Notes under the pieces: generated by a model
What the model was told of the DNA's origin: nothing
Databases searched by the model: none
The model's input: the letters and a program-made list of their open reading frames with translations, nothing else
NCBI RefSeq assembly: GCF_032362555.1
Contig: NC_083514.1
Span: 915,001 to 979,000 of the forward strand
DNA length: 64,000 bases
Direction of reading: 5' to 3'
Source: Amyelois transitella
Lineage: Eukaryota > Arthropoda > Insecta > Lepidoptera > Pyralidae
Translations under genes and position numbers: made by a program
In this document: in pieces, positions 150 to 63,425 of the stretch
Numbering within the stretch: the stretch's first letter is position 1
How the letters are laid out: the number at the start of each line of letters is the position of its first letter

Positions 150-424
150 AGATATAATTCACTACACTCAAAATGCATTTATATACCTACACAAATCTAA
201 TTGTCATTCTGTGTTCTTCCGACTGAGATCAATATGCTAGCAGTGCACTTGATCGTTGCAGAATGCATTGACACAAATGCAGTGATTCGATACGCACTTA
301 CAGACATATAGATTGCTAGTAATACGCTTACATAACAGTTTCAACAAATGTTTTTAATCCCTATCATTATTTATCACCATATTAGCTTTTGGATTAAGAG
401 CTGAATGAAGCATGCTATAACATA

Positions 425-690
425 ACTAGGTGTGCCCGAACGACTTCGTCCGCGTGGAATAGTTATTTTGGGCATCATTGAAGCTTAATGATGAAGGATA
501 AAAAATTAACGTTTTTTTACATTTTCCATTATTTCTTCGCTCCTTACAGTTGCAGCGTGATGTTATATAGCCCAAAGCCTTCCTCGATAAATGGTCTATT
601 TAACACACAAAGAATTTTTCAATTCGAACCAGTAGTTCCTGAGATTAGCGCGTTCAAACAAACAAACTGTTCAGCTTTATAATATTAAGC
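425..690 (+). repeat. Family D repeat
   Basis: Starts with a decayed GTGCCCGAACGACTTCGTCC head. It continues through the family body (TTCAATTCGAACCAGTAGTT) to AGCTTTATAATATTA. It abuts an RTE fragment directly, so one inserted next to or into the other. The 64-aa open frame inside it is not a gene. Confidence 0.75.
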
Positions 691-912
691 TCGGGGTGGG
701 AAGACCTAGACGAACATATCTTGATCAAATTAAGGACGTCCTGGTGAAGGGTCAGGTCAAAAGTGCCCGAAACCGCCGAGCTTGCATGAAGAGAGTTATG
801 AATGTGGATGAAGCAAAGGAAGTATGCAGGGATCGTGGCAAGTGGAAAGAGGTAGTCTCTGCCTACCCCTCCGGGAAAGAGGCGTGAGTTTATGTATGTA
901 TGTATGTATGTA
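691..912 (+). mobile_element. RTE LINE 3' end (family B)
   Basis: The translation reads VGRPRRTYLDQIKDVL through YPSGKEA and a stop, followed by (TATG)n. This is the C-terminal end of the RTE-type ORF seen at greater length at 23.65-24.50 kb. Strongly 5'-truncated. Confidence 0.85.
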
Positions 913-1504
913 TGTTATAATATTAATATAAATTAAAAACGTATTGCGACAAAGAAAAAAGGGCCAAACACAACAAAATCAATTAATTATTCTACGAGTA
1001 ATCCAGCCATTACTATTCAAGTAACTACATTTACAAATGTCGTTGATTAAAACTAATCGTAATCGGCTTAATTGAGGTCACACAGTATTACAATGGGCTT
1101 TAAATCGAGTACGACAAACAAAGCTTTACCTAAATTAACGGCGACACACAAACATACATACAAACAAACAAAAAGACAATTGTAACGTTAGACTTCCCGT
1201 AACGAGATATTTTAATCCTGACCGACAAACGCAAAACCGCCAACTTGAGTCACAGTAACATACAAATAACTTATTGTTTTTCACACACTTTTTGCATTAT
1301 TACAAGGAATCATGTTAGGTACATTTCAATATCAGTCTTTCTCTGTTAGGTTCGGAATAAAGTTATTTTTTTTCTTACACGCCTGCTGTGTTAAAATAAA
1401 GGGTATATAATAAATGATTTTCCACAGCAAATAAACTATATACTTATATAAATATAGGGTACAGTATTCGGGCATAAGATTTTAGAAGTGTAATTGATGT
1501 TCTT
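913..1504. other. AT-rich intergenic, no gene seen
   Basis: No coding exon, RNA gene or recognised repeat was seen here. Confidence 0.5.
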
Positions 1505-1755
1505 TGGAGGTAGGTGCCGTGTGGTTTCCGGCACCAATAAAAAAAAGGAAAAAGACCACTACACGACGCTAAAGGATAGGCGATATACACTTGAGATTCA
1601 TCTTTTAGGCGATAGGCTAGCAACCTGTAACTATTTGAATCTCAATTGTATCAGTAAGCCAACAGCTGAACGTGGCCTATCAGTCTTTTCAAGACCATTG
1701 GCTCTGTCTACCTCGCAAGCGATATAGACGTGATAATATATATGTATGTAATTAA
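1505..1755 (+). repeat. Family A repeat, near full length
   Basis: Has the hairpin head GGTGCCGTGTGG...CCGGCACC and the GCGATAGGCTAGCAACCTG core. It ends in GATATAGACGTGATAATATA with a short ATGT tail. The 'GGATGTCGTAAAAGGCGACTAAGG' section is shortened. Confidence 0.85.
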
Positions 1756-6447: not shown

Positions 6448-6650
6448 GTAGTTCCCGGCACTAAACTCTCTCTACACTCCCATCTCTTTTCCACTGATAT
6501 CGTAAAAGGCGACTAAGGGAATAGGAAAATTCATCCAATATGGGTTAGGTTCCCCTCAATGGTTCCGGAGAAAAGGCGGGTGAAACTTCGTGTAAAAACC
6601 TGACTTACCTAATCCAGGAACGAAACGAAGCGACAAAATGCGCGCCGTGG
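6448..6650 (+). repeat. Family A head fragment followed by decayed family C
   Basis: GTAGTTCCCGGCACTAAAC and GATATCGTAAAAGGCGACTA are family A. AACTTCGTGTAAAAACCTGACT at 6580-6605 is the family C core. Both are partial. Confidence 0.55.
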
Positions 6651-6703
6651 GCACGCCTTTAGAAAGGTGAGGAAGAAGGAGAAGGTTAATATTTAATTCT
6701 TAC

Positions 6704-7426
6704 CTTTTCGCTATCTGAGGGAAGAGTCCCATAGCCGTACCAGCTCCTAGCCGCCCTCAGTCTCGGCTCCTCCTTTGGGGACAACAGCCCACTGCCCCAC
6801 CTGACCAGGCCTTCGGCCACGGCCGCCACGCTCGGCGTACTAGGGCTCCCATTCGGGGAACCGGGCGAAACAAAACCCTTCTCAGCCACGGGAGGCAAAG
6901 TAGGCCTCGCGCATCCCGTCCGCCTCTCATATATCCTCTTCAAAGGCTCATCACAATCAGTCTCCAACAACCCCTTCTTGTCACTCCCCCTCTTGACCTC
7001 CGCTATCCTCTTCACATCTTGATTCTGGACCCTCAGAATCTTGGGGTCGGAATCTTTCCTCTTCGCGCTCTCGTTCGACTCCTGGCGTGAAAGCAGCGCC
7101 TTTTTCAAACTCTCGCTGGAGTCCTGTTTCGAGAGTTGAGCCTTGTCCTCCCTCTTGTCATCTTTGGAGAGCAACGCTCGTTTGAGGCTGTCAGACGAGT
7201 CTTGCTTGTTGATGAGTTTCCTCGGGCATTCTGTGTTGAGGGAATCTGTCGTTTTTGATATGAGGAGTTTCGGGTAGTCGTACGGGGTGTGATCGTTTGG
7301 TGGGTTGAGTTCTAAGGAGCGTCTGTTCTTCCGTTTGTCTGCTGGCGCGATCTGCGCTTTGACGGGCAAGAGCCGCCGGGGCAGCAGGCTGCGGTGGTCA
7401 GCGAGCGGCGACTCCGGTCGGAACAT
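6704..7426 (-). CDS. Coding exon of an unrecognised Ser/Lys-rich disordered protein
   Basis: Open for 241 codons from ATG at 7426. On the minus strand it ends in a strong donor (CGAAAAG|GTAAGAAT), phase 0, so the protein continues left of the window. An acceptor (TTTGTTCCAG) lies 43 nt upstream of the ATG, at about 7470. In the ATG frame a TAG sits between them, so the ATG is probably the true start behind a spliced 5' UTR. The protein is low-complexity and basic, with no domain I recognise. Residues ~74-124 carry three related units of the form KQDSS-E/D-SLK-K/R-ALLS, which look like phosphorylatable serine clusters. Residues 185-215 are Pro/Ser/Gly-rich. GC content is much higher than in the flanks. 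Function unknown; confident only that the exon is real. Confidence 0.7.
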
Positions 7427-10114: not shown

Positions 10115-10734
10115 GTGAATATACGCTATTTGAATTTCAATGGTCTTTAGAAAATGTTTATGTTAAACTTATTATATTATTGTTTCTCTATGTTTAAACA
10201 ATAAATAACATGGCCTTTTATCTGGCCCACATAGTCTAATCACGAAAATTGTTTAATTTAAAGCATTATTAGCTTAAAAAATTAAAAATGTATACTCCTC
10301 TGGCCTTCCCATTCATGCATTATAATGATTGAACGGCAATATACTTTAAATACAAATACACAAATATGTTTTTTTTAAATTATTACTAACTGTTATAAAT
10401 ATCGAAACATATTTAATCAAAATACATTGTAAAAATATTTAATAATATGAAAAAAATAAAACTTGTTTTCATGTCATGTTACAAATACGTCACTTCATCT
10501 GGCGAAACTCTAAAGAACAAAAATTTCACTTAAAATCGCCAATTTGTGTTTTGATCTTAAACTGGGCGCGTCGAACAGTGTGAAGTTAGGGCCAGGCCAC
10601 AACAGTGCGTTGCGGCGTCGCATCGTAAAAACAACATCGCACAGCTATGCGATGCGATGTCGCAACGCAAAAATTTCATCGGATACGACATCGTACGTAA
10701 AGACGCTAACCAACGTTTCAGTTTCTAGTGAGAC

Positions 10735-12755
10735 ATGGATCGCACTGCGCGTGTTCTACTTCTGCTTGCGTTAAGGCGTATTAAGAAAAAGAAACAGAAA
10801 AGAAAGTACTGGGTGCACCCATTACTGACAATTATGAATAAAGATGGAAACCACTTCAAAAGGAAATATGAGGCGCTAAAAGTGGACGAGGTTAAATTTT
10901 TCGATTACTTTAGGATGAGTGTAGGAAGTTTTGAAGAGCTTCTTAGTTTGATAAAGCCTCATTTACAAAAGAAATACATATTTAGAAAACCCATCGAACC
11001 TCTGGAGATGCTGGGATTAACTATAAGGTAAGAAAAAAATAAACTATTTATACTATAATCATACTGTTTAATCATTTTCACAATTTAGTGTTATTCAAAA
11101 CTCGTAATCCGATTGTGTGTCATTCGTCAAATTTGTTAGTTCCTCATCGAAATTAATTTGTTCTGGCTCATTTACATCATCATTCCTTGGCGTTTGTGGA
11201 GACGATTGCATAGGCGCCGGTGATGTTTCGCATCCGCTTTGGAAGGCACTGCGTTGAATGGATGTTTGGTAGCCACTCTGCATAGACATTTGAGCTGTTT
11301 GATAGCCAGTCTGAACAGTTGTTTGAGATGTTTGATAGTTTGCTTGGACGGATGTTTGTGAAGTTTGATAGTGGCTGGGATAGTATGATGGTTGGTGTAA
11401 ATCAGTTAATATCTGTAGGACACGACTTTGGAAAATTATTGTTTGATTATCATTCAATTTTTCCAATGATGGCAAAATTCCTTTAAAAAAAGATAAATGT
11501 CTACTTTCAGGTGTTTTTAAAGCAGCTATAATATTCTTCTCAAATTCGTCTTCGTCAATTTTTCTTTTACGCGATGCAGGCTGGTAACGTGGCATGACAG
11601 GTTGCTGGCTTTGTTGGGTTGAGGTGCTTGGTCTTATTTCTTCATCGTCAAGACTTGATGTTGTTTTATTTTGAAAATTCTTTTTCAGAAATAGGAGCTG
11701 GTCGTATAGATGATATTGTTTAATTTTTTTGGCCCCAGCTCCGGATTTACATTGCTCGTTTAATTTTTTTTCGTATTTTGTAAAATTATCCTTGATTCCT
11801 CTCCATTTTTTTATGACATCGTTACCTAAAAAAATATGAAGAATAATGATTTATTTTGTTTTTTTTTTTCAGGTACCTGGCGACGGGAAATACTTTTAAA
11901 GATATGCATTTCACATATTATCGTGGAAAATCTACAATAACAGAAATAGTAAAATTTGTTTGTCGTATTTTATGGAACATTCTTAAAAGGTTGGAATTAC
12001 CAAAAATTACAACAGAGCTGATGGAACAAATTGCTCAAGAGTATGAAAAAAAGACCAACTTTCCTAATTGTATAGGAGCGCTAGATGGAAAACACATTCG
12101 TATATTGAGCCCGGATCACAGTGGATCCCTATTTTTCAATTATAAAAATTATAATTCCATTGTTCTATTAGCACTTGTTGATACGAATTACAAATTTATA
12201 TATGTCGATATAGGTGCATATGGTAAGGAATGTGACTCCACTGTTTTTCAAAATTCAAAACTATACGACTTATTAAAAAAAGGTCAATTATCTATACCTC
12301 CGCCAAAACCGTTACCTGGCTTTCAAAAAGAAATTCCTTTTGTCTTCGTGGCGGATGAAGGATTACCACTGACAAATAATATAATGCGCCCATATTCTGG
12401 GAAGTTTTTATCGATAGAAAAACGAGTTTTTAATTATCGTTTGAGCCGAGCCAGACGATATGTTGAGAGCGCTTTTGGCATTCTCGCAAATAAATGGCGC
12501 ATATTTCACCGACCCATTAATGTTTCTTACGATTTCACAATAGACATTATAAAAGCATGCTGTGTATTACACAACTTTGTATTGAATCGAGATGGCGCAC
12601 AAACGTTTGAAGAAATGATTATTGACGATTCTTTGCAAATTTTACACGAAACAACACATGAAAGTAGAACGGAAGCTAACATAATCAGAAACGAATTTTG
12701 TAATTATTTTAATAGTAACATTGGAGCTCTAAGTTGGCAGTTAACGAAAATATAA
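10735..12755 (+). CDS. PIF/Harbinger DDE transposase
   Basis: Two exons, 10735-11027 and 11873-12755, joined across ATAAG|GTAAG and TTTTCAG|GTACC, give 391 aa and restore the family motif LGLTIRYLATGNTF at the junction. The DDE nuclease signature is present. The first Asp is in GALDGKHI, followed by the GAYGKECDSTVF block. The second Asp is in FVADEGLPL and the Glu in RARRYVESAFGIL. The conserved HNF of CCVLHNFV follows. The N-terminus is basic (RRIKKKKQKRK). Expected role: cutting at the TIRs together with the partner encoded on the other strand. Its intron contains the partner's long second exon. The family length is usually 350-450 aa, so it looks complete. Confidence 0.93.
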
Positions 12756-12951
12756 ATGTTTATAAGTACTTACCGATTTTTGATTTTTCAACAGTATTTA
12801 ACTCCTCAAAATTTGAATATAAACTTGTACACACTTCCCTCCATGCTTCTGTTTTTAAATTTTTGTCTTTGAATTGTGATATAGTTTTGTCCCAAAGGAC
12901 GGGACGTTCGTAAATTAAAGATATCAGGTGGTCGACATCGTACTCCGCCAT
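11095..12951 (-). CDS. Harbinger accessory protein, MADF-BESS type
   Basis: Two minus-strand exons, 12951-12774 and 11825-11095 (CAAAAATCG|GTAAG to TTTTTTAG|GTAAC), give 302 aa. Residues ~1-95 form a MADF (Myb/SANT-like) DNA-binding domain: DHLISLIYERPVLWD, then KTEAWREV, then IKKWRGIKDNFTKY. Residues ~180-215 (FFKGILPSLEKLNDNQ and the following helix) resemble a BESS protein-interaction motif. Residues ~220-275 contain four units related to YQTSQTSVQ, a Gln/Thr/Tyr low-complexity repeat. The C-terminus is acidic. In Harbinger systems the second protein binds the TIRs and brings the transposase to DNA. MADF-bearing partners are known from Drosophila PIF elements. Its intron encloses the transposase's second exon. 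Confidence 0.88.
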
Positions 12952-13370
12952 ATCGCTTAAAAAACACGTGCAGGTCGTTCAAAGTATGGACACCGACTAA
13001 ACGGCAACGCGTTGTCGCATCGCAGATTTGTACGTTGCGCAGCGCATCGGATTTTCCACGATGCGTTGTGCGGCGTCGTTGATTTTTGCGATGCGACGCC
13101 GCAACGCACAGTTGTGGCCTGGTCCTTAGTAGCAAGCTAATGGTCTTGAGCAGAACTTAAATAATATTGCGTCAGTTTACGAATGAATTTGGGAGAGCGT
13201 GTTTTTGCCACTCGTTTGAGTATTTCCTTTGGTAAGCATATGTTTTCGTATTTTATTGTTGGAAAACTGTTTATTAGCACAATGCAAGGTTTATTGTGTG
13301 TAGATGTCATGTGTTACGTCAAACTGTGGTGCGAAAATCGAGTGATGTTATTTTTGTACGTTAAGTACGA

Positions 13371-13599: not shown

Positions 13600-14928
13600 T
13601 CGGGCCCCAGGTACAAGTATTCTGCTACGCAGATGATACGCTTGTGGCCGCCTGGAGACATGAACTTGAAGCGGCAGAAATGATGATTCGTTCGTCGCGT
13701 TGGTATGCTAGGGTTAATGGTAGCCCTGAGCAAAACGGAGGCCATCGCCTTTGGCGGTCGAGGTTGGAAGACTCAGGCCGGTGTGTTCATGATGGTGGAT
13801 GGGGAGAGGGTACATGTAATGCCACACATCAAATACCTTGGCATCATATTGGACCCACGGTGGAACTTCGGGGAGCACTTTAGACAGCTAGCTCCCCAAT
13901 TAGTGAGAACCGCATCGGCACTCAGCCGGCTGCTGCCCAACATTGGTGGGCCTGGTGCTACATGTCGGCGCCTATATGCAGGTGTAACACGCAGCATGGC
14001 GCTGTATGGGTTGCCGATATGGGCGGATAGGCTCACTAGAGCCAACAGGGCCTTGCTGCGACGACCACAGCGTGTGGTGGCCATACGTATCTGCAAGGCC
14101 TACCACTGTGGCGTGGGCGGCAACCTGCGCTCTGGCCCAAAAGGAGTTGTTCTGGGAAAGGAGGAGGAGGGCGGAGATGCCGGAATTAGCGGGAGCGGCT
14201 GGTGTAAACTTGGCTGTGGTATTGCGGGAGCGATAGAGAACTCCGAATTCAGCTATTGTACTATCGGGGCGCTCCTTCCATCGCTTGACAACTGGTTGGA
14301 CCGACGCCACGGCCAGGTGACATTCAGGCTGACGCAGGTAATGACCGGACATGGTTGCTTCGGTCATTACCTGCATCGGATTAGATAAGAGGCTACTGAG
14401 GTCTGCCATGAGTGTGGGGAGCCGGATGATACGGCCCAACATACTCTGGCAGAGTGCTCGAAGTGGTCGGATGAGCGGGCCACCCTCATGACCGCCTTAG
14501 AAATAGGGAACCTCTCGCTGCAAAGTGTAGTAGCTGCGATGCTGTGCTGCAAGAGGAAATGGGAAGTAGTGGTTTCCTTCTGCGAGTACGTCATCTCGCA
14601 GAACACGATCACTTTATCGTGCGCGCCTACTGCCTCACTAGGGTCACTTCCCGACCCTGGGATGGAAAGGGCGGCCAGCAACTTACTGGTCACCTATTAC
14701 AGCAAGATTCCCGGCACAGAAGCGCCGGGCAGCCTGAGAGCATCGTGGTGAAATTCCTGCGATCCCATGATGCAAAATCATCACCCTCAAAATGGCAAGA
14801 AGGGCGCACGGAGGGGTTTTAGTGGGTAGGCTGGTTTACTAGGTGCCAGGAGTCCCACACTCTCCCGGGTGTTGACCCGGGGTCTTGTCCGTAAAAAGGA
14901 TTTCCCCTTCGATAACAAAAAAAAAGTA
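13600..14928 (+). mobile_element. R1-type non-LTR retrotransposon fragment, frameshifted
   Basis: The translation begins inside the reverse transcriptase palm, with the catalytic YADD at 13626-13637 (FCYADDTLV). After a frameshift near 13700 it continues as KTEAIAFGGRGWK, then IKYLGIILDPRWNF, then LYGLPIWADRL. Further frameshifts fall around 14100 and 14230. Near 14400-14460 CHECGEPDDTAQHTLAEC is the Cys-His finger typical of the R1 clade C-terminus. It ends in a short poly(A) at 14918-14926. The 5' half is missing and the reading frame is broken, so it is dead. Confidence 0.85.
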
Positions 14929-23666: not shown

Positions 23667-24520
23667 CGATCAGATTATACTGGCGTCATCAGCGGAGGAG
23701 TTACAGGAGATGGTAAACTGTATGCATGAAGCTTTAAAAGAGAAAGGAATGAAAGTGAACGTAAGTAAAACTAAAACACTGGTTTTTGAAATGGAGAAAG
23801 AAATGACAGCATGTAATATTTTGATTGGAGGAGAAAAACTCTTTCACTTGCTCCACAAGTGAAAGAGTTTGTATATCTAGGATCAAAGTTTACATCAGAT
23901 GGCAAGTATGATAGTGATATTGAAAGGAGAGTGAACGCGGGGAACATGGTGAATGGAGCTTTGCATGCCTTTATGAGCAGTCAGAAACTATCCAAAAAGG
24001 CTCGACTGGCTGTGCACAGGGGCGTGTTGGTCCCGACATTAATGTATGGGAGTGAAAGTTGGGTATGGCAAAAGAAGCATGAAAGCAGAATAAATGCAGT
24101 GGAAATGAGAGCGTTAAGGAGTATGATGGGTGTGAAATTGAGTGACAGGATAAGGAACAGCGTGATAAGGGAATGTTGTGATGTGAAAGAAGATGTAGTT
24201 ACAGGAATAGAAAAGGGTATGTTAAGATGGTTCGGTCATGTGGAGAGGATGAATGAAAGCAGGTTGACTAAGCAGATATACAAGGAGAGTGTGGAGGGAA
24301 AGGTCGGAGTGGGAAGACCTAGACGAACGTATCTTGATCAAATTAAGGACGTCCTGGTAAAGGGTCAGGTCAAAAGTACCCGAAACCGCCGAGCTTGTAT
24401 GAAGAGAGTTATGAATGTGGACGAAGCGAAAGAAGTATGCAGAGATCGTGGCAAGTGGAAAGAGGTAGTCTCTGCCTACCCCTCCGGGAAAGAGGCGTGA
24501 TTTTATGTATGTATGTATGT
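23646..24520 (+). mobile_element. RTE LINE fragment, longest copy
   Basis: Reverse transcriptase C-terminal part. GDQIILASSAEELQEM begins just at the catalytic Asp pair, so the active-site motif is lost. It is followed by MKVNVSKTKTLVF. A one-base frameshift near 23840-23850 separates this from KEFVYLGSKFTSDGKYDSD, then VLVPTLMYGSESWVWQ, then WFGHVERM, then the GRPRRTYLDQIKD tail, ending YPSGKEA and a stop at 24500. The (TATG)n tail follows. Non-autonomous, 5'-truncated and broken. The 213-residue second frame is intact, so the copy is young. Confidence 0.92.
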
Positions 24521-34684: not shown

Positions 34685-37600
34685 TTATATTTTGTTCAGC
34701 AGGAGTATGCTTCCAGGCAAGCTGAACGGTCCAATTCGAGATCGAATATCCACTGCTCTCACAGCAAAGTAATATTTGAATCCAGCTACAAATTGCGTCA
34801 ATGTGCAAGCCATAGGTAAGGGCAACGCCTTCACATCTCCAATTTTTTTCCACAAAGCTGTGCTTGGCGTTGTGTTTGTTTCCTGATAGGCGTACAGCTG
34901 ATAGCTCGCTATTTCTTCATAACTATCTTCTTGGTATCCATCTATTTTCCACGAGATTACTATTCCATTTTCTACTTTGGACAGTTTGAGATCAGGCGCG
35001 GGTGGCAACGCTTTCAAGTTACTACCAGGATATATTTTCGTGCTTTCGGGCAATGGCGCTGGATGCCTATTTGAAATTCTCGTCATCCTAATTTGGTTTT
35101 GTGGGTGTCTCCCCATATGCGCCTGGGGAACTCTTGGTCGCGGACCTGAAAACATAAAAAAAAAATAATTAAAAACTTAATTTTTTTTTTTTTAATTTTG
35201 TTTGAAACATGTTCTACGCAACTGTACTAACAGTAATAATAATAAGCTGACATAAAAAATAAATTATAACATTAATAAACTACTCACTCTGAGACGGCGC
35301 GCTATTAACAGATTTCAGCATTATTGCTTGTCCAGGTCTGACCTGGTTTTGCGTACCACTAATAGGAATATAAACTTTTCTAGGGTTATTTTGTGGGACC
35401 GGATGTCTAGCCGACACTGGCAGTAGATTTTGTGGAACCAAATGCGGGGCCACCACTCGGACCGGTGTAGGAGTGGAGTTTCTATTTGTGATTTTGGTCG
35501 GTGGTTCATCTTCAGTAAGGTCTACAGTTACAGAACTGGCTCGGTTGATACCCCTCTTTTCCGTTTTCCCTTGATTCGTTCTGACTCCGTTTACTGGGCT
35601 GGTCACTTTCGCATTGTTATTGGTGTTTATTTGTTGCACATTTTTTGTTGCTGGGCTGTTTGACGCTGGGACGAGCCTGGGAACAGGGATTGATTGCGGC
35701 GAAGGCGTTATAGGAACTTTTATTGTGCGCTGAGTTGCCAGCCGTGGAGATTTAGTAGGAGTGGTTACGTTGGTATTGGTCACAGTCGAAACCTGCCCAG
35801 GCGGCCCCTTTCTTTTAATGATCGATCTCTCCGTCATCAGAACTTGCATACCCACAGATCTAGTTATTTTCAACGGCGTCACAGTTTTTGAATTTTTCTG
35901 CTCCTCTTGAATAGTCTTTAAAACAACTTGAAGATCGCGATTTTGTTTTGTTAGCAACATTGCTTTCTTTTTATATTCTTCTATAGATTGAGCCATGCTC
36001 TTAAGTTTTGTCTTAATCTCACTCAAGCTACTTCTGTCGACCACACTCTCGACAATTTTTAGTATGCAGAATTCTTCCAAATCATCCCTTGTCATTTCAG
36101 CCATGGTTTTCTTGCACGTTTTCAAGAAATTGTTAGGAATAAGGGGCTTAGGCAACCCGGTTTTGACTTCAGGCTTTACGTCATCTTGCGGTCGTTGCGA
36201 GCTTTCCTCTTTTTCCTCTTCTGTTTTCTTTTCATCTACAGGTTTTTCAACTGAAATAATTACATTAATTTTAATTAAAATTAAACATGTGACAAAGTGA
36301 ATAACATAAAACATGTATAAAGGCCAAATACATACCTTCTTGAGAAATCTGTTGCGTTGGTTTCTCATCTGCTGTCTTGTCTTTTATTTCATCTTCAAGT
36401 TTAGGTGAGAGTTCAGAACGTGCGGTGAGAGTCTTTGATTTATCTGGAGTATCTTTATTATGAGCACCAACCTCGTCGACAAGCATAATATCATCATCAT
36501 CGTCAATATTGATGCACTGTTTTTCTTCAGAATTTTCTGCATCTTTTGTTTCAGGTTGAGAAGACTGTTTTGGTTGTATTGTTTCTTCATCTTCATCGTC
36601 AGATAAAATGTTTAATGTATTTGATAATTTCAAAACAGAGGGTATATTTTTCCGTTCACTAACGTCTTTTGTTTTTTGGCTAAAAGTTTTAGGAATATCT
36701 TTATCGTTTTTCTTTTCATTGGCTGTTTCATCCGGTTTATCTATTGGTCCAGATACGTTTGTTTCTTTTATGTTATCATTATCTACTAAATGTTTATCTT
36801 CATCCATTCTCATATCGCTATTCTTTAAGATATCACCATTTCGATCAGTTGTATTTTCTTCGATGTTATCCTCACAATCAAGGTTTATTATCTCATCTTT
36901 TTCGGCAGTGTTGGTTTCTCCAGTTTCGTTATTTACATCAACATCCATCGCTTCTGTTTCGCTAGAGTCTTTATCATCAATTAAATCAACAGTTTCCATT
37001 CCAATCACAGATTCTTTTACTTTCGCAGTAGAATCATCGCTTACAGTACCACGAATATTCAAATTGGAACATGTCTTGGAACTTTCAGTCTCTGTTTTCT
37101 TATCATCCAAGTTCACTGTTTCAATATCTTTAACAGTTGACAAAACGTTTATAATATTTTCAATATCCGGTTGTTTAACTTCTCGCTCATCTGGTATTTT
37201 AGAGTAAGAAGGTTTTAAAAGTTGATCAGAACATTTCGGATTCTCTTGCAGGTTTGACTCTTGAATAACGTTTCCAGACAAGCCATCACTGTGACTAGAA
37301 TTTTTAGTTATTTCTTTATTTTCTAATATGATTTTGTCATCGTTTGTGATTTTAACAAGGTCTTCAGATGCCTGTTTTTTATCCAAAATTTTAATATTTT
37401 CAGTGTTTCCTACAGAATTTTCTTCTGGCATCGGGCTTTGTTCAAGATCGTCTTCACAATCAATATTTATAACACAATCTTTTTCAGAAGATACAGAAAT
37501 AGACGAAGCCTCTATGTCTGGTTTTCCAGTTGCGTCATTTACATCTACATCCATTATTTCCGTAGCGCTTATATTCTTTTTTTCAAGTGTTTCATCAGTT

Positions 37601-38640
37601 TTCATGTCTATTGCAATTTTTTCTATATTATTTTTGGCATTCTCACTATCCACAATATAAGAGCACTTCTCCGAACTTACTACATCACTTTCTAAATTCA
37701 CAGTTTCTACTTTTTCTCTAGTTAATGATAAGATATTTTTACAGTTGGACTGTTTTATAACTTCTTGCTTTTCAAGCGTTTCAGAGTCACTGGCAGGACC
37801 TTGTGTTGAATATGCATTAGGACTTTTTGGTACTTCTTTCAGTTTTGACACCTCAACTATGTTTTCAATTATCTGTTCACTACCATTATTGGAATTTTGA
37901 AGCATTGCATCCACCTCAGATGTGATATCACTTTCAGTTCGAACAATATCTTTGTTTACCTGATTAACTACATTTGGATCATCTTCACTATGTTTGTTTT
38001 CTACTATGACGTCCATCTCTTCCGAAATTCCTAATTCATTATTACTGTCTTTCTTCTCGACAGATTCCTCAGTTTGTTCAGTAGAAGTCGGACTCACGTG
38101 TTCGAGAGTACAAGTGTCATCCTCAATATGACTATTTTGATCATTTATTTGTTTAACTATCACTTTTGTATCGCCAGTCCCACCCAGCTTCTCCTTTACA
38201 TTATTTGAGCTACCTACTTTTTCATTACTGCCATTACCAGAGCCATGTTCATTCCCTTGCTCTGATTGATTCATCACAGAGAGATTGCCGTTGTCTATTT
38301 TATTATGTGAATTATCTTCAGAAACGACATTTGTACCTCGATCTTTGTTACCTTCATTATTAACATTTTTTGCTATATTGTCGTCATCATTGTTGGTGCC
38401 CTTGTCAGTAACTGGTGAGCTTGGCGTTAATACTTCATCAACTTTAACATCTTCTAAATGAGGCTTGTCATCACAAGATATTTTATTATCATTGCTTTTA
38501 ACATTTTCCTTATTGCTATTACAAAGCTCGCTCTTTAGATCTTGAATGACGCCATCCAGCTTTTCAGTAAGTTCTTCGTTCAGTGATGACATGTTTTTTC
38601 TAATGTCTATATCTGTCTCAGCATCTAATATTAATTGCAT
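34685..38640 (-). CDS. wde: ATF7IP/windei-type chromatin protein
   Basis: Three coding exons, 38640-36336, 36250-35288 and 35145-34685, join in phase (AGAAG|GTATG, ATTTCAG; TCAGA|GTGAGT, TTTTCAG) to 1242 aa. Residues 1-770 are disordered and Asn/Ser/Asp-rich. Residues ~815-890 (CKKTMAEMTRDDLEEFC to LQVVLKTIQEEQ) form the coiled-coil segment by which ATF7IP/Windei binds SETDB1/Eggless, the H3K9 methyltransferase. VTVDLTEDE at 1009-1017 is a SUMO-interacting motif, and acidic SIM-like patches recur at 390-397, 584-592 and 709-723. Residues ~1137-1238 are the C-terminal fibronectin type III domain (PPAPDLKLSKVENGIVISWK, then YYFAVRAVDIRSRIGPF). Expected role: nuclear cofactor stabilising SETDB1 and directing heterochromatin silencing. 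The 5' UTR starts at an acceptor (ATTACAG) at 38675, so a first exon lies upstream. Residues ~296-400 and ~489-595 look like a duplicated module. The symbol follows Drosophila. Confidence 0.9.
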
Positions 38641-39293
38641 TGTTTCTCATGTCTCATATCAGATGTGTTGAAATTCTGTAATGAGAAAAAAAAACAAAGT
38701 TAAGAATTGAACAATAATCGAATCAACTAAAACTATTCAACTAAAACTATTTTTCGCCATTTTGTAATTCATTTGACAATTTATCTGACAGTTTTTTGAA
38801 GGACATTTGCATAAAGCAATAATATTTTTGTCAGCGAATTGACATAGCTATCTAATAAAAAAATAACAAAATAGATTAAAGAAAATAAATAATTTGATCA
38901 ATAACAATTTATGAATAATAAATTTTCGTTTCACACCATAGCGGAGTAGTAAGTGCGCTGTCTAAGTTTAATTTGTTGAAATTACATCTCAGTAGTCAAT
39001 TCAATTTACATTTTCGTCCAATTTTAAAATCTTATTGTTAATGAAAAAATAGTTATCGTATTTGAAATAATATTTCTGGAGGCTCATTGCATTTACTTGA
39101 ATCTTCCTAAAAATAACTAGGATACTGTTTATTTTAAGATTTTGCAGTTGTTAAAATAACCAAACGCTTCTTACGCAATGACGTCATGCTTCTATTTACG
39201 ATGATAATACGTTTCAAATAATAATATTCAGGCGAATAAAGTTAACTTAGCCAATTCTGTACCGCCTAGAAACCTATGTAACTAAAACCGTGT

Positions 39294-62485: not shown

Positions 62486-63399
62486 TCACTGGGCCGGCAG
62501 GCACGGCACCGGCGCGCCCGGGCCCACGGCCGGCTTGAACTCCGCGGCCCCGGTCGTCGGGAACTGCTGGAAGGGCGCGTAGCATTGTGGGAAGTAAAGC
62601 TCGGGTTTGACCACGGCGGACGCCGGGGGCAGCGGGCGGGGTGTCTTCGCCGCGTCAGCTCGCCTCGCCTTAGCCGCGTGCGGGTTCATGTGGTTGTCGA
62701 TGTGCTTCTTCACCTCGGGCTCGGTCGCGAACCTCCGCCGGCAGTTCGACATGGGGCAGCAGAACGGCCGGTCCCCTTGATGCGTCCTCGTGTGCTGGTC
62801 TAATATAGCTTTCTGCCTGAAGTCTTTACCGCATTGAGTGCATTTGTAGGGTTTCTCGCCCGTGTGAATGCGGAGATGTTGATTTAAAATCGTTCTCTGC
62901 CGGAAGAATCTGGGGCAGTAAACGCAACCGTAAGGTTTCTCGTTGGTGTGGATGCGCAAGTGCTGGGTTAGATGCGATTGTTGGCGGAAACGTTTGCCAC
63001 ATTCCGGACAAGGATACGGTCGGGATTCTATGTGGATGCACCCGTGTTGCAGCAGCGTTGATTTTTGTTTGAACTCTTTCTGGCAAATGGGGCAGCGCAC
63101 ATACAACGGCATCGCGCGGCCGCCGAGTACATCGGGCAGCTTGCCTCCTTTCAAGTATTGTAACGAGAGTCCCGATCCGAACACGGTATGGTTGAGTCCC
63201 TTCGTGTCCTTGAAGTATGCTGGATATTGCGCCGTGTCACCCGGGGAGAAGCACGAGCCGCGCTGGTCGCCGTTTTGCCCGTCCGTGTCTCCGTACGTCG
63301 ACTGCACCTCCTCTTTGTTCTCGTCAGCCGGGAATGGCACATCCTGGGGCCACAGAGTAGGCGTCGTCCCGTTCTTGAATATCAGATGCGGCGAAACGT
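62486..63399 (-). CDS. C2H2 zinc-finger transcription factor, terminal exon
   Basis: The minus-strand exon starts after a good acceptor (CGTTTTTGCAG) at 63400, phase 1, and runs open to a stop at 62486, 304 codons. It begins as VSPHLIFKNGTTPTLW, a non-finger region. Then come five fingers: CPICQKEF, CPECGKRF, CVYCPRFF, CTQCGKDF, and a longer-spaced last one, CPMSNCRRRF. Four contain F-K/R-Q after the second Cys, and the linkers are TGEKPY-like. After the last His pair (HIDNHMNPHAAKARR) comes a Pro/Ala-rich tail. A nuclear DNA-binding regulator is expected. I do not recognise the exact orthologue. The exon is GC-rich, unlike its flank. The ATG at 63340 is internal. Confidence 0.85.
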
Positions 63400-63425
63400 C
63401 TGCAAAAACGGAATACTTTGGTCAG

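Follow-up and report, generated by a model that had tools for sequence, protein, structure and literature searches.

Insect DNA transposons of the PIF/Harbinger superfamily are described, in the available portions of PMC9710019 and PMC4482050, as carrying a DDE transposase gene and a MADF/Myb-like partner gene between terminal inverted repeats (TIRs), with 3-bp duplications of the target. The element with which we are concerned here has the same components. It lies in a 64,000-nucleotide stretch of the genome of the moth Amyelois transitella (contig NC_083514.1, positions 915,001 to 979,000), which we call the window and in whose numbering its coordinates are given. The last exon of each of its two genes sits in the intron of the other, on the opposite strand, and the exons follow one another in the order T1-M2-T2-M1, where T is the transposase and M the MADF protein. 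We regard it as an autonomous, recently active PIF/Harbinger element whose interlock is inherited within a clade and locks both genes together, and we give this reading a probability of about two in three.

In the accessible text of PMC9710019, both proteins are needed in the rice and zebrafish Harbinger systems, and in zebrafish the Myb-like partner attaches to subterminal motifs, and joint nuclear entry with the transposase depends on it. The likeness to Harbinger3_DR of zebrafish and to HARBI1/NAIF1, taken from the same partial text, is known from description and lies in the two-protein scheme. The pairs DPLG7/DPM7, APLG/APM and LPLG2/LPM2, as far as that text goes, also combine a transposase gene with a MADF gene; they are thought to stem from one insertion and have been kept side by side. 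Unlike the window element, they are host genes without ends or duplications and are described as adjacent, not threaded. The portion available also mentions BPLG2, a domesticated cockroach transposase that is 394-395 aa long and whose gene has a single intron, of 900-1500 bp.

ISL2EU elements, described in the available part of PMC9179366, belong to the same wider superfamily, and the two loci of the present genome to which we give this name carry two facing genes on opposite strands. The Harbinger-Snek elements of sea kraits are two-protein Harbingers like ours. The portion of PMC8437027 at hand reports 2263 transposase-only and 452 partner-only variants of Snek in L. colubrina, and 35 and six, respectively, in L. 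laticaudata, whereas no one-gene variant was found for the window family; the ages and copy numbers of the two differ greatly. Reciprocal nesting of the two genes is not mentioned in the accessible portions of PMC9710019, PMC11893794, PMC9179366, PMC7998251, PMC8437027, PMC4482050 and PMC4298943, nor in what a wider literature search returned.

Structure of the element

The complete transposon spans positions 10589-13125 (2537 bp), with a TTA duplication on each side (10586-10588 and 13126-13128, established by comparison across copies). These limits are supported by ends and 3-bp duplications common to the copies elsewhere and by the empty sites of two of them, described below. The ends read GGGCC...GGTCC between the two TTA triplets, and the TIRs (10589-10631 on the plus strand, 13083-13125 on the minus strand) are 43 nt long and 93% alike. 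Subterminal GCGATGCG/CGCAACGC repeats occur on the left at 10606-10669 (repeat family D1 and pair I3) and on the right at 13003-13108 (repeat family D1); they are candidate binding sites.

The plus-strand transposase gene runs from ATG to TAA in two exons with an intact frame of 391 aa. Exon 1 (10735-11027; 97 codons plus 2 nt) encodes the N-terminal part, and exon 2 (11873-12755) the DDE catalytic domain. The intron between them (11028-11872, phase 2) starts with GTAAGA and ends with TTTCAG. On the minus strand, the MADF gene runs from ATG to TGA, also in two exons and with an intact frame, of 302 aa. Its exon 1 (12774-12951) encodes the first part of the MADF domain, and exon 2 (11095-11825) the rest of that domain, a weak match to BESS and a C-terminal tail. 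The MADF intron (11826-12773, phase 1) starts with GTAAGT and ends with TTTTTTTAG, so both introns are of the GT-AG type. MADF exon 2 is thus enclosed by the transposase intron and transposase exon 2 by the MADF intron, and the coding parts nowhere overlap. The gaps are 67 bp from the transposase donor to the MADF stop, 47 bp from MADF exon 2 to transposase exon 2, and 18 bp from the transposase stop to the MADF donor.

The sequence-only reading of this DNA had proposed an intact Harbinger element with interlocked genes, sound splice sites, and nearly perfect TIRs and duplications; its coordinates hold to the base, and the two second exons, both introns and the two narrow exon gaps are as it had them. 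It had also named the minus-strand product a MADF-BESS protein, which stands for MADF (Pfam MADF_DNA_bdg, E=9.7e-14, 51.9 bits against a cut-off of 22) and less firmly for BESS, whose match in this copy, 17.0 bits, is under the Pfam cut-off of 21. The last exon of M in a related family, G, does pass that cut-off (E=1e-8). The transposase matches Pfam DDE_Tnp_4 (E=4.3e-30), and D169, D259 and E296, which we take from the family's motifs to be the catalytic residues, are kept in 18/18 aligned transposases. A sequence search of solved structures with the transposase gave no match at E up to 1. Because the transposase intron divides the N-terminal part from the DDE domain, and the MADF intron splits the MADF domain itself, a working protein is not to be expected from either exon by itself.

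The DDE_Tnp_4 transposase, the MADF partner gene, the TIRs, the 3-bp duplications and the mobility described below place the element in PIF/Harbinger. An ISL2EU identity was rejected, since Pfam finds no match to the YqaJ nuclease in its two proteins. A domesticated PIF gene pair, which would be single-copy and without ends or duplications, was rejected as well, given nine copies with ends, eight of them with duplications.

Copies and mobility

The genome searched (327 Mb in 33 contigs) holds nine near-identical copies, the window copy included, spread over seven contigs. The window copy equals L003 in sequence (L numbers are our handles for loci), and the other copies differ by few substitutions and small indels, the largest being a 19-bp deletion in L010. 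A perfect 3-bp duplication borders 8/9 copies (TTA three times, TAA once, TAC three times, GTT once), the remaining copy, L008, having an altered left end. The TWA given for PIF/Harbinger in the available part of PMC4482050 is thus obeyed by four of these eight, and the window family departs from it with TAC and GTT.

Two copies have uninterrupted counterparts of their insertion sites. L003 is inserted in the terminal repeat of an element of another family, B, and its site is present without interruption in nine family B loci, at 87.0% in L018 and 99.3-99.8% in the other eight. L007 is inserted in a family A element, and two loci of family A have its site uninterrupted (99.1 and 99.5%). These empty sites come from comparison of the fetched loci and concern L003 and L007, not the window copy. 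Neither copies lacking one gene nor second exons standing as separate insertions were seen, either of which the sequence-only reading had counted against itself: none of the nine copies lacks a whole exon, and the 2.5-kb unit is one piece at both sites with uninterrupted versions. The window element is a recently active cut-and-paste transposon that moves as one unit.

All nine copies retain the four exons and their splice dinucleotides, and both frames are intact in five (L002, L003, L004, L006, L007). In L008 the transposase is altered only near its end, with a stop at residue 380 of 391. A scan with the 33-bp end of the family (up to 3 mismatches) gave 18 matches, two per element for nine elements and none besides, such repeat counts being lower bounds; no short derivatives with these ends were found in it, and no one-gene copy lies between them among the nine. 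Since the copies are so alike, the family is very probably young.

The interlock in related families

Looking for the same exon interlock elsewhere in the genome, as the sequence-only reading had proposed, finds it in diverged families. Loci L011-L048 were fetched by match to the element, to its transposase or to DDE_Tnp_4, and L001 by motif; they are a sample, 106 of 617 and 150 of 532 transposase candidates having been scored. With profiles from the gene models, 45 transposase cores were detected in L001 and L011-L048; many represent the same family more than once, and all were found via the transposase. In 35/45 cores the last M exon lies on the opposite strand inside the transposase intron, and in 28/45 all four exons follow in the order T1-M2-T2-M1. 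Of the 35, four (L025, L029, L033:496, L038:6765) have T1 missing or beyond the locus, and in three (L028, L034, L036:6-845) this applies to M exon 1. Family B copies with insertions or frameshifts (L018, L019, L021, L023) still have the four exons in order, with extra kilobases between exons in L021 and L023.

Thirteen lineages of this form, which we call type 1, are covered (window, A-K and P), down to 39-48% identity in the transposase and 22-30% in M, and both reading frames continue in the diverged relatives. In the modelled junctions, nine families (window, A, B, C, D, F, G, H, I) share one residue position and phase 2 for the transposase intron; for the M intron, nine (window, A, B, C, F, G, H, I, P) share one residue position and phase 1. 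The transposase junction was not recovered in the family P models, and M exon 1 was not found in family D. Across eight families the three gaps range over 14-813, 47-647 and 12-438 bp; since they vary so freely, it is the order of the exons that is conserved and not their spacing. The ends of twelve other loci were compared, a duplication being required within 8 bp, so that some may be chance: eight (L017, L020, L030, L031, L032, L037, L039, L044) have inverted ends that match over 25 nt together with a 3-bp duplication, L011 is doubtful, and no ends were found in L026, L043 and L045.

The interlock is thus shared by many families and is probably an old, inherited trait of the clade. The sequence-only reading, confined to one element, had understated the finding in this respect.

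A second form, and relatives without the interlock

In L036, L044 and L045 the transposase intron is at about residue 142, in phase 0, just before a P..W motif; L043 was grouped with them, its junction being ambiguous. In this second form the MADF domain is in the outer exons, and only a later M exon is inside the transposase intron. In a transposase tree of 20 rows, L036, L043, L044 and L045 fall on one side of a weakly supported branch (80/21), and another branch (89/92) sets apart the thirteen type-1 rows, the uninterrupted transposase of L001 belonging to neither type. An M tree of 16 rows separates type 1 from type 2 at 99/99, with long branches. The two trees agree on the forks that both resolve (type 1/type 2; window and A, then B; F and G), as would be expected if T and M never part.

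A shift of about 44 codons across the M exon is not a case of intron sliding; therefore, either the interlock arose twice or the last exon was relocated. The interlock may, then, have arisen twice. A fuller proposal, with at least two origins (transposase intron at about residue 98 in phase 2 and at about residue 142 in phase 0) and selection keeping the arrangement, whether because it blocks one-gene derivatives or because antisense self-restraint is favourable, is one that we put forward only tentatively.

Relatives without the interlock are present as well. L048 belongs to a different Harbinger family, with a DDE_Tnp_4 transposase (2950-1715, minus strand) and a Myb_DNA-bind_5 partner (268-1675, plus strand; exon limits by eye) placed tail to tail. 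In L041 (2201-5070) and L042 (2114-4957) an uninterrupted transposase gene and a second gene on the opposite strand also stand tail to tail; Pfam, run on L041 only, gives DDE_Tnp_4 and YqaJ. Our ISL2EU label for these two follows the description in the accessible part of PMC9179366. They differ from the window element in the YqaJ partner (L041), in the single uninterrupted transposase frame and in having no interlock. A tail-to-tail pair could have become interlocked if its inner T2-M2 block was duplicated in tandem and one copy of T2 and one of M2 were then lost.

The motif match L001 is on a contig filed under a bacterial metagenome-assembled genome (uncultured Arenicella). Its transposase is 39% identical to that of the window and is uninterrupted at the window's intron site. 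Being an animal-like PIF transposase, it probably represents eukaryote contamination. The viral contig collection held neither T or M relatives nor a match to the end sequence or motif; the plasmid collection gave no match, and a search of the prokaryote genome contigs with the transposase gave none either.

What may keep the two genes together

In the mechanism that we propose, two promoters near the ends would drive converging transcripts, each of which would be spliced across the last exon of the other gene, yielding separate mRNAs for the DDE transposase and its MADF partner. The latter would serve transposition and the nuclear entry of the transposase, as in the Harbinger elements that have been studied. 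Once present, the interlock would be hard to leave, and the two required proteins would stay on one unit. Because the last exons lie in each other's introns, one cut cannot remove one whole gene and leave the other complete, and since a single cut cannot separate them, the two genes travel as one unit. L046 was tried as an interlock-free relative and rejected: by eye, a deletion took M exon 2 together with the transposase acceptor and left the donor. It illustrates the lock, because the loss of the M exon went with the loss of the acceptor. That the lock is the reason for the persistence of the arrangement is what its geometry suggests to us. In favour of the reading, both genes have dN below dS (window against family A: T 0.21/2.00, M 0.38/1.82), with more differences at third than at second positions in both frames.

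Several observations weigh against this reading. The lock is only partial, as small changes can hit one gene alone: L005 has a stop in M, L010, whose transposase is intact, has its 19-bp deletion and further changes in M exon 2, and L009 has a frameshift in T. In a family as uniform as that of the window, the missing deletion derivatives may only reflect youth. The 45 cores, being copies of the same families found by a transposase-based search, are not independent, and derivatives retaining only M would be missed. The junction search was scored partly by likeness to the window's own junction, and the use of the promoters and splice sites is predicted from the DNA. In most pairs dS is near or beyond saturation, so that only the direction of the comparison of dN with dS is safe.

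To these must be added the ten of the 45 cores that were not counted as interlocked. Four are cut by the edge of the locus (L014, two in L016, one in L034). Five others are L001 (uninterrupted transposase), L033 (truncated), L046 (the deletion), L047 (a frame recognized only by eye) and L048 (a different clade). In L047 a minus-strand frame in the transposase intron was considered, by eye, as a last M exon and rejected, Pfam finding neither BESS nor MADF in it. The tenth, L036:3067-3876, was set aside because the T1 and M exons with which it had been paired belong to an element inserted within it; its own remnants (T 6563-6649, M 6680-6931) fit the interlock, with T1 outside the locus.

The alternative that survives best is pure inertia, a neutral ratchet in which a tail-to-tail pair was rearranged with no effect on fitness and undoing the change needs several coordinated steps. 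It overlaps with our explanation, which adds that the lock keeps the genes together. Non-interlocked tail-to-tail pairs, from which such a ratchet could start, do exist in the same genome (L048 with its Myb partner, and the ISL2EU-like L041 and L042), and the intron positions of type 1 are frozen wherever they were modelled. That a second clade has this topology with different intron positions is, however, not predicted by inertia from a single event, and we place this explanation somewhat below even odds.

Antisense coupling is a less probable account. It holds that, because the two pre-mRNAs overlap, transcriptional collision, splice-site masking or double-stranded RNA causes each protein to limit the other, and that the element thereby restrains its own copy number. 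That the two transcripts could couple or limit each other's expression was suggested by the sequence-only reading and is possible. Every interlocked family modelled has a gene order that entails the overlap; in the window copy it would take in about 1.86 kb, from 11095 to 12951 at least. Overlap may extend to the mature mRNAs, because the candidate poly(A) signal of the transposase, an ATTAAA at 12914-12919 on the plus strand, lies within MADF exon 1; that of the MADF gene, ATTAAA at 11067-11072 on the minus strand, is within the transposase intron. AATAAA or ATTAAA follows the stop within 200 nt in 15/18 genes (T 7/9, M 8/9), against 40% of random window stretches (p=2e-4 if the genes are independent). 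The nine copies of the window family are few enough to fit self-restraint, but youth also explains the low number, and spacers of 12 to 813 bp between families indicate that no fixed regulatory geometry has been kept. As the reason for the persistence of the interlock, we place inertia together with gene locking ahead of antisense regulation, and we consider antisense coupling unlikely.

That the arrangement is an artefact, with the minus-strand gene a chance open frame or the unit two transposons nested in each other, has a negligible probability: nested insertions do occur in this genome, but nothing indicates one at the window element, M has its Pfam match and the same frame and intron phase in nine families, each unit has one pair of ends and one target duplication, empty sites exist, and nine copies on seven contigs dispose of an assembly artefact.

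Gene pairs lying partly in each other's introns are an extreme form of overlap, and with many families and two clades in one genome, the question of why such overlaps last becomes directly testable. Casola et al. 2007 and the Repbase reports may show structures of this sort. The interlock of T and M offers a physical reason for two required transposon proteins to stay together and leads to the prediction that one-gene parasites seldom arise from interlocked families. With its antisense overlap, such an element further lends itself to asking whether small-RNA silencing can be fed by overlap within the element itself. Elements of this kind would be broken up by annotation pipelines in which genes may not overlap.

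Surroundings of the element

The element often lands in other PIF elements; by eye, L005 and L010 are also beside or in PIF-like sequence. In the sample of 106 scored transposase matches (of 617 candidates), 50 fall in seven intervals, chosen by eye, that amount to 0.47% of the genome: C7:2.75-3.12M, C19:1.78-2.05M, C20:1.81-2.01M and 7.22-7.345M, C23:4.78-4.94M, C27:2.87-3.20M and C30:1.805-1.90M. These dense nests of PIF elements are possibly trap loci or silencing clusters.

Within the window, two frames resemble, by eye, pieces of non-LTR retrotransposon proteins: one at 13687-14388, which begins about 560 bp to the right of the element, and one at 23817-24500. Two host-like genes, also recognized by eye, lie further along on the minus strand: one at 34685-38646, for an acidic protein whose C-terminal part is fibronectin-like, and one at 62486-63421, for a C2H2 zinc-finger protein.

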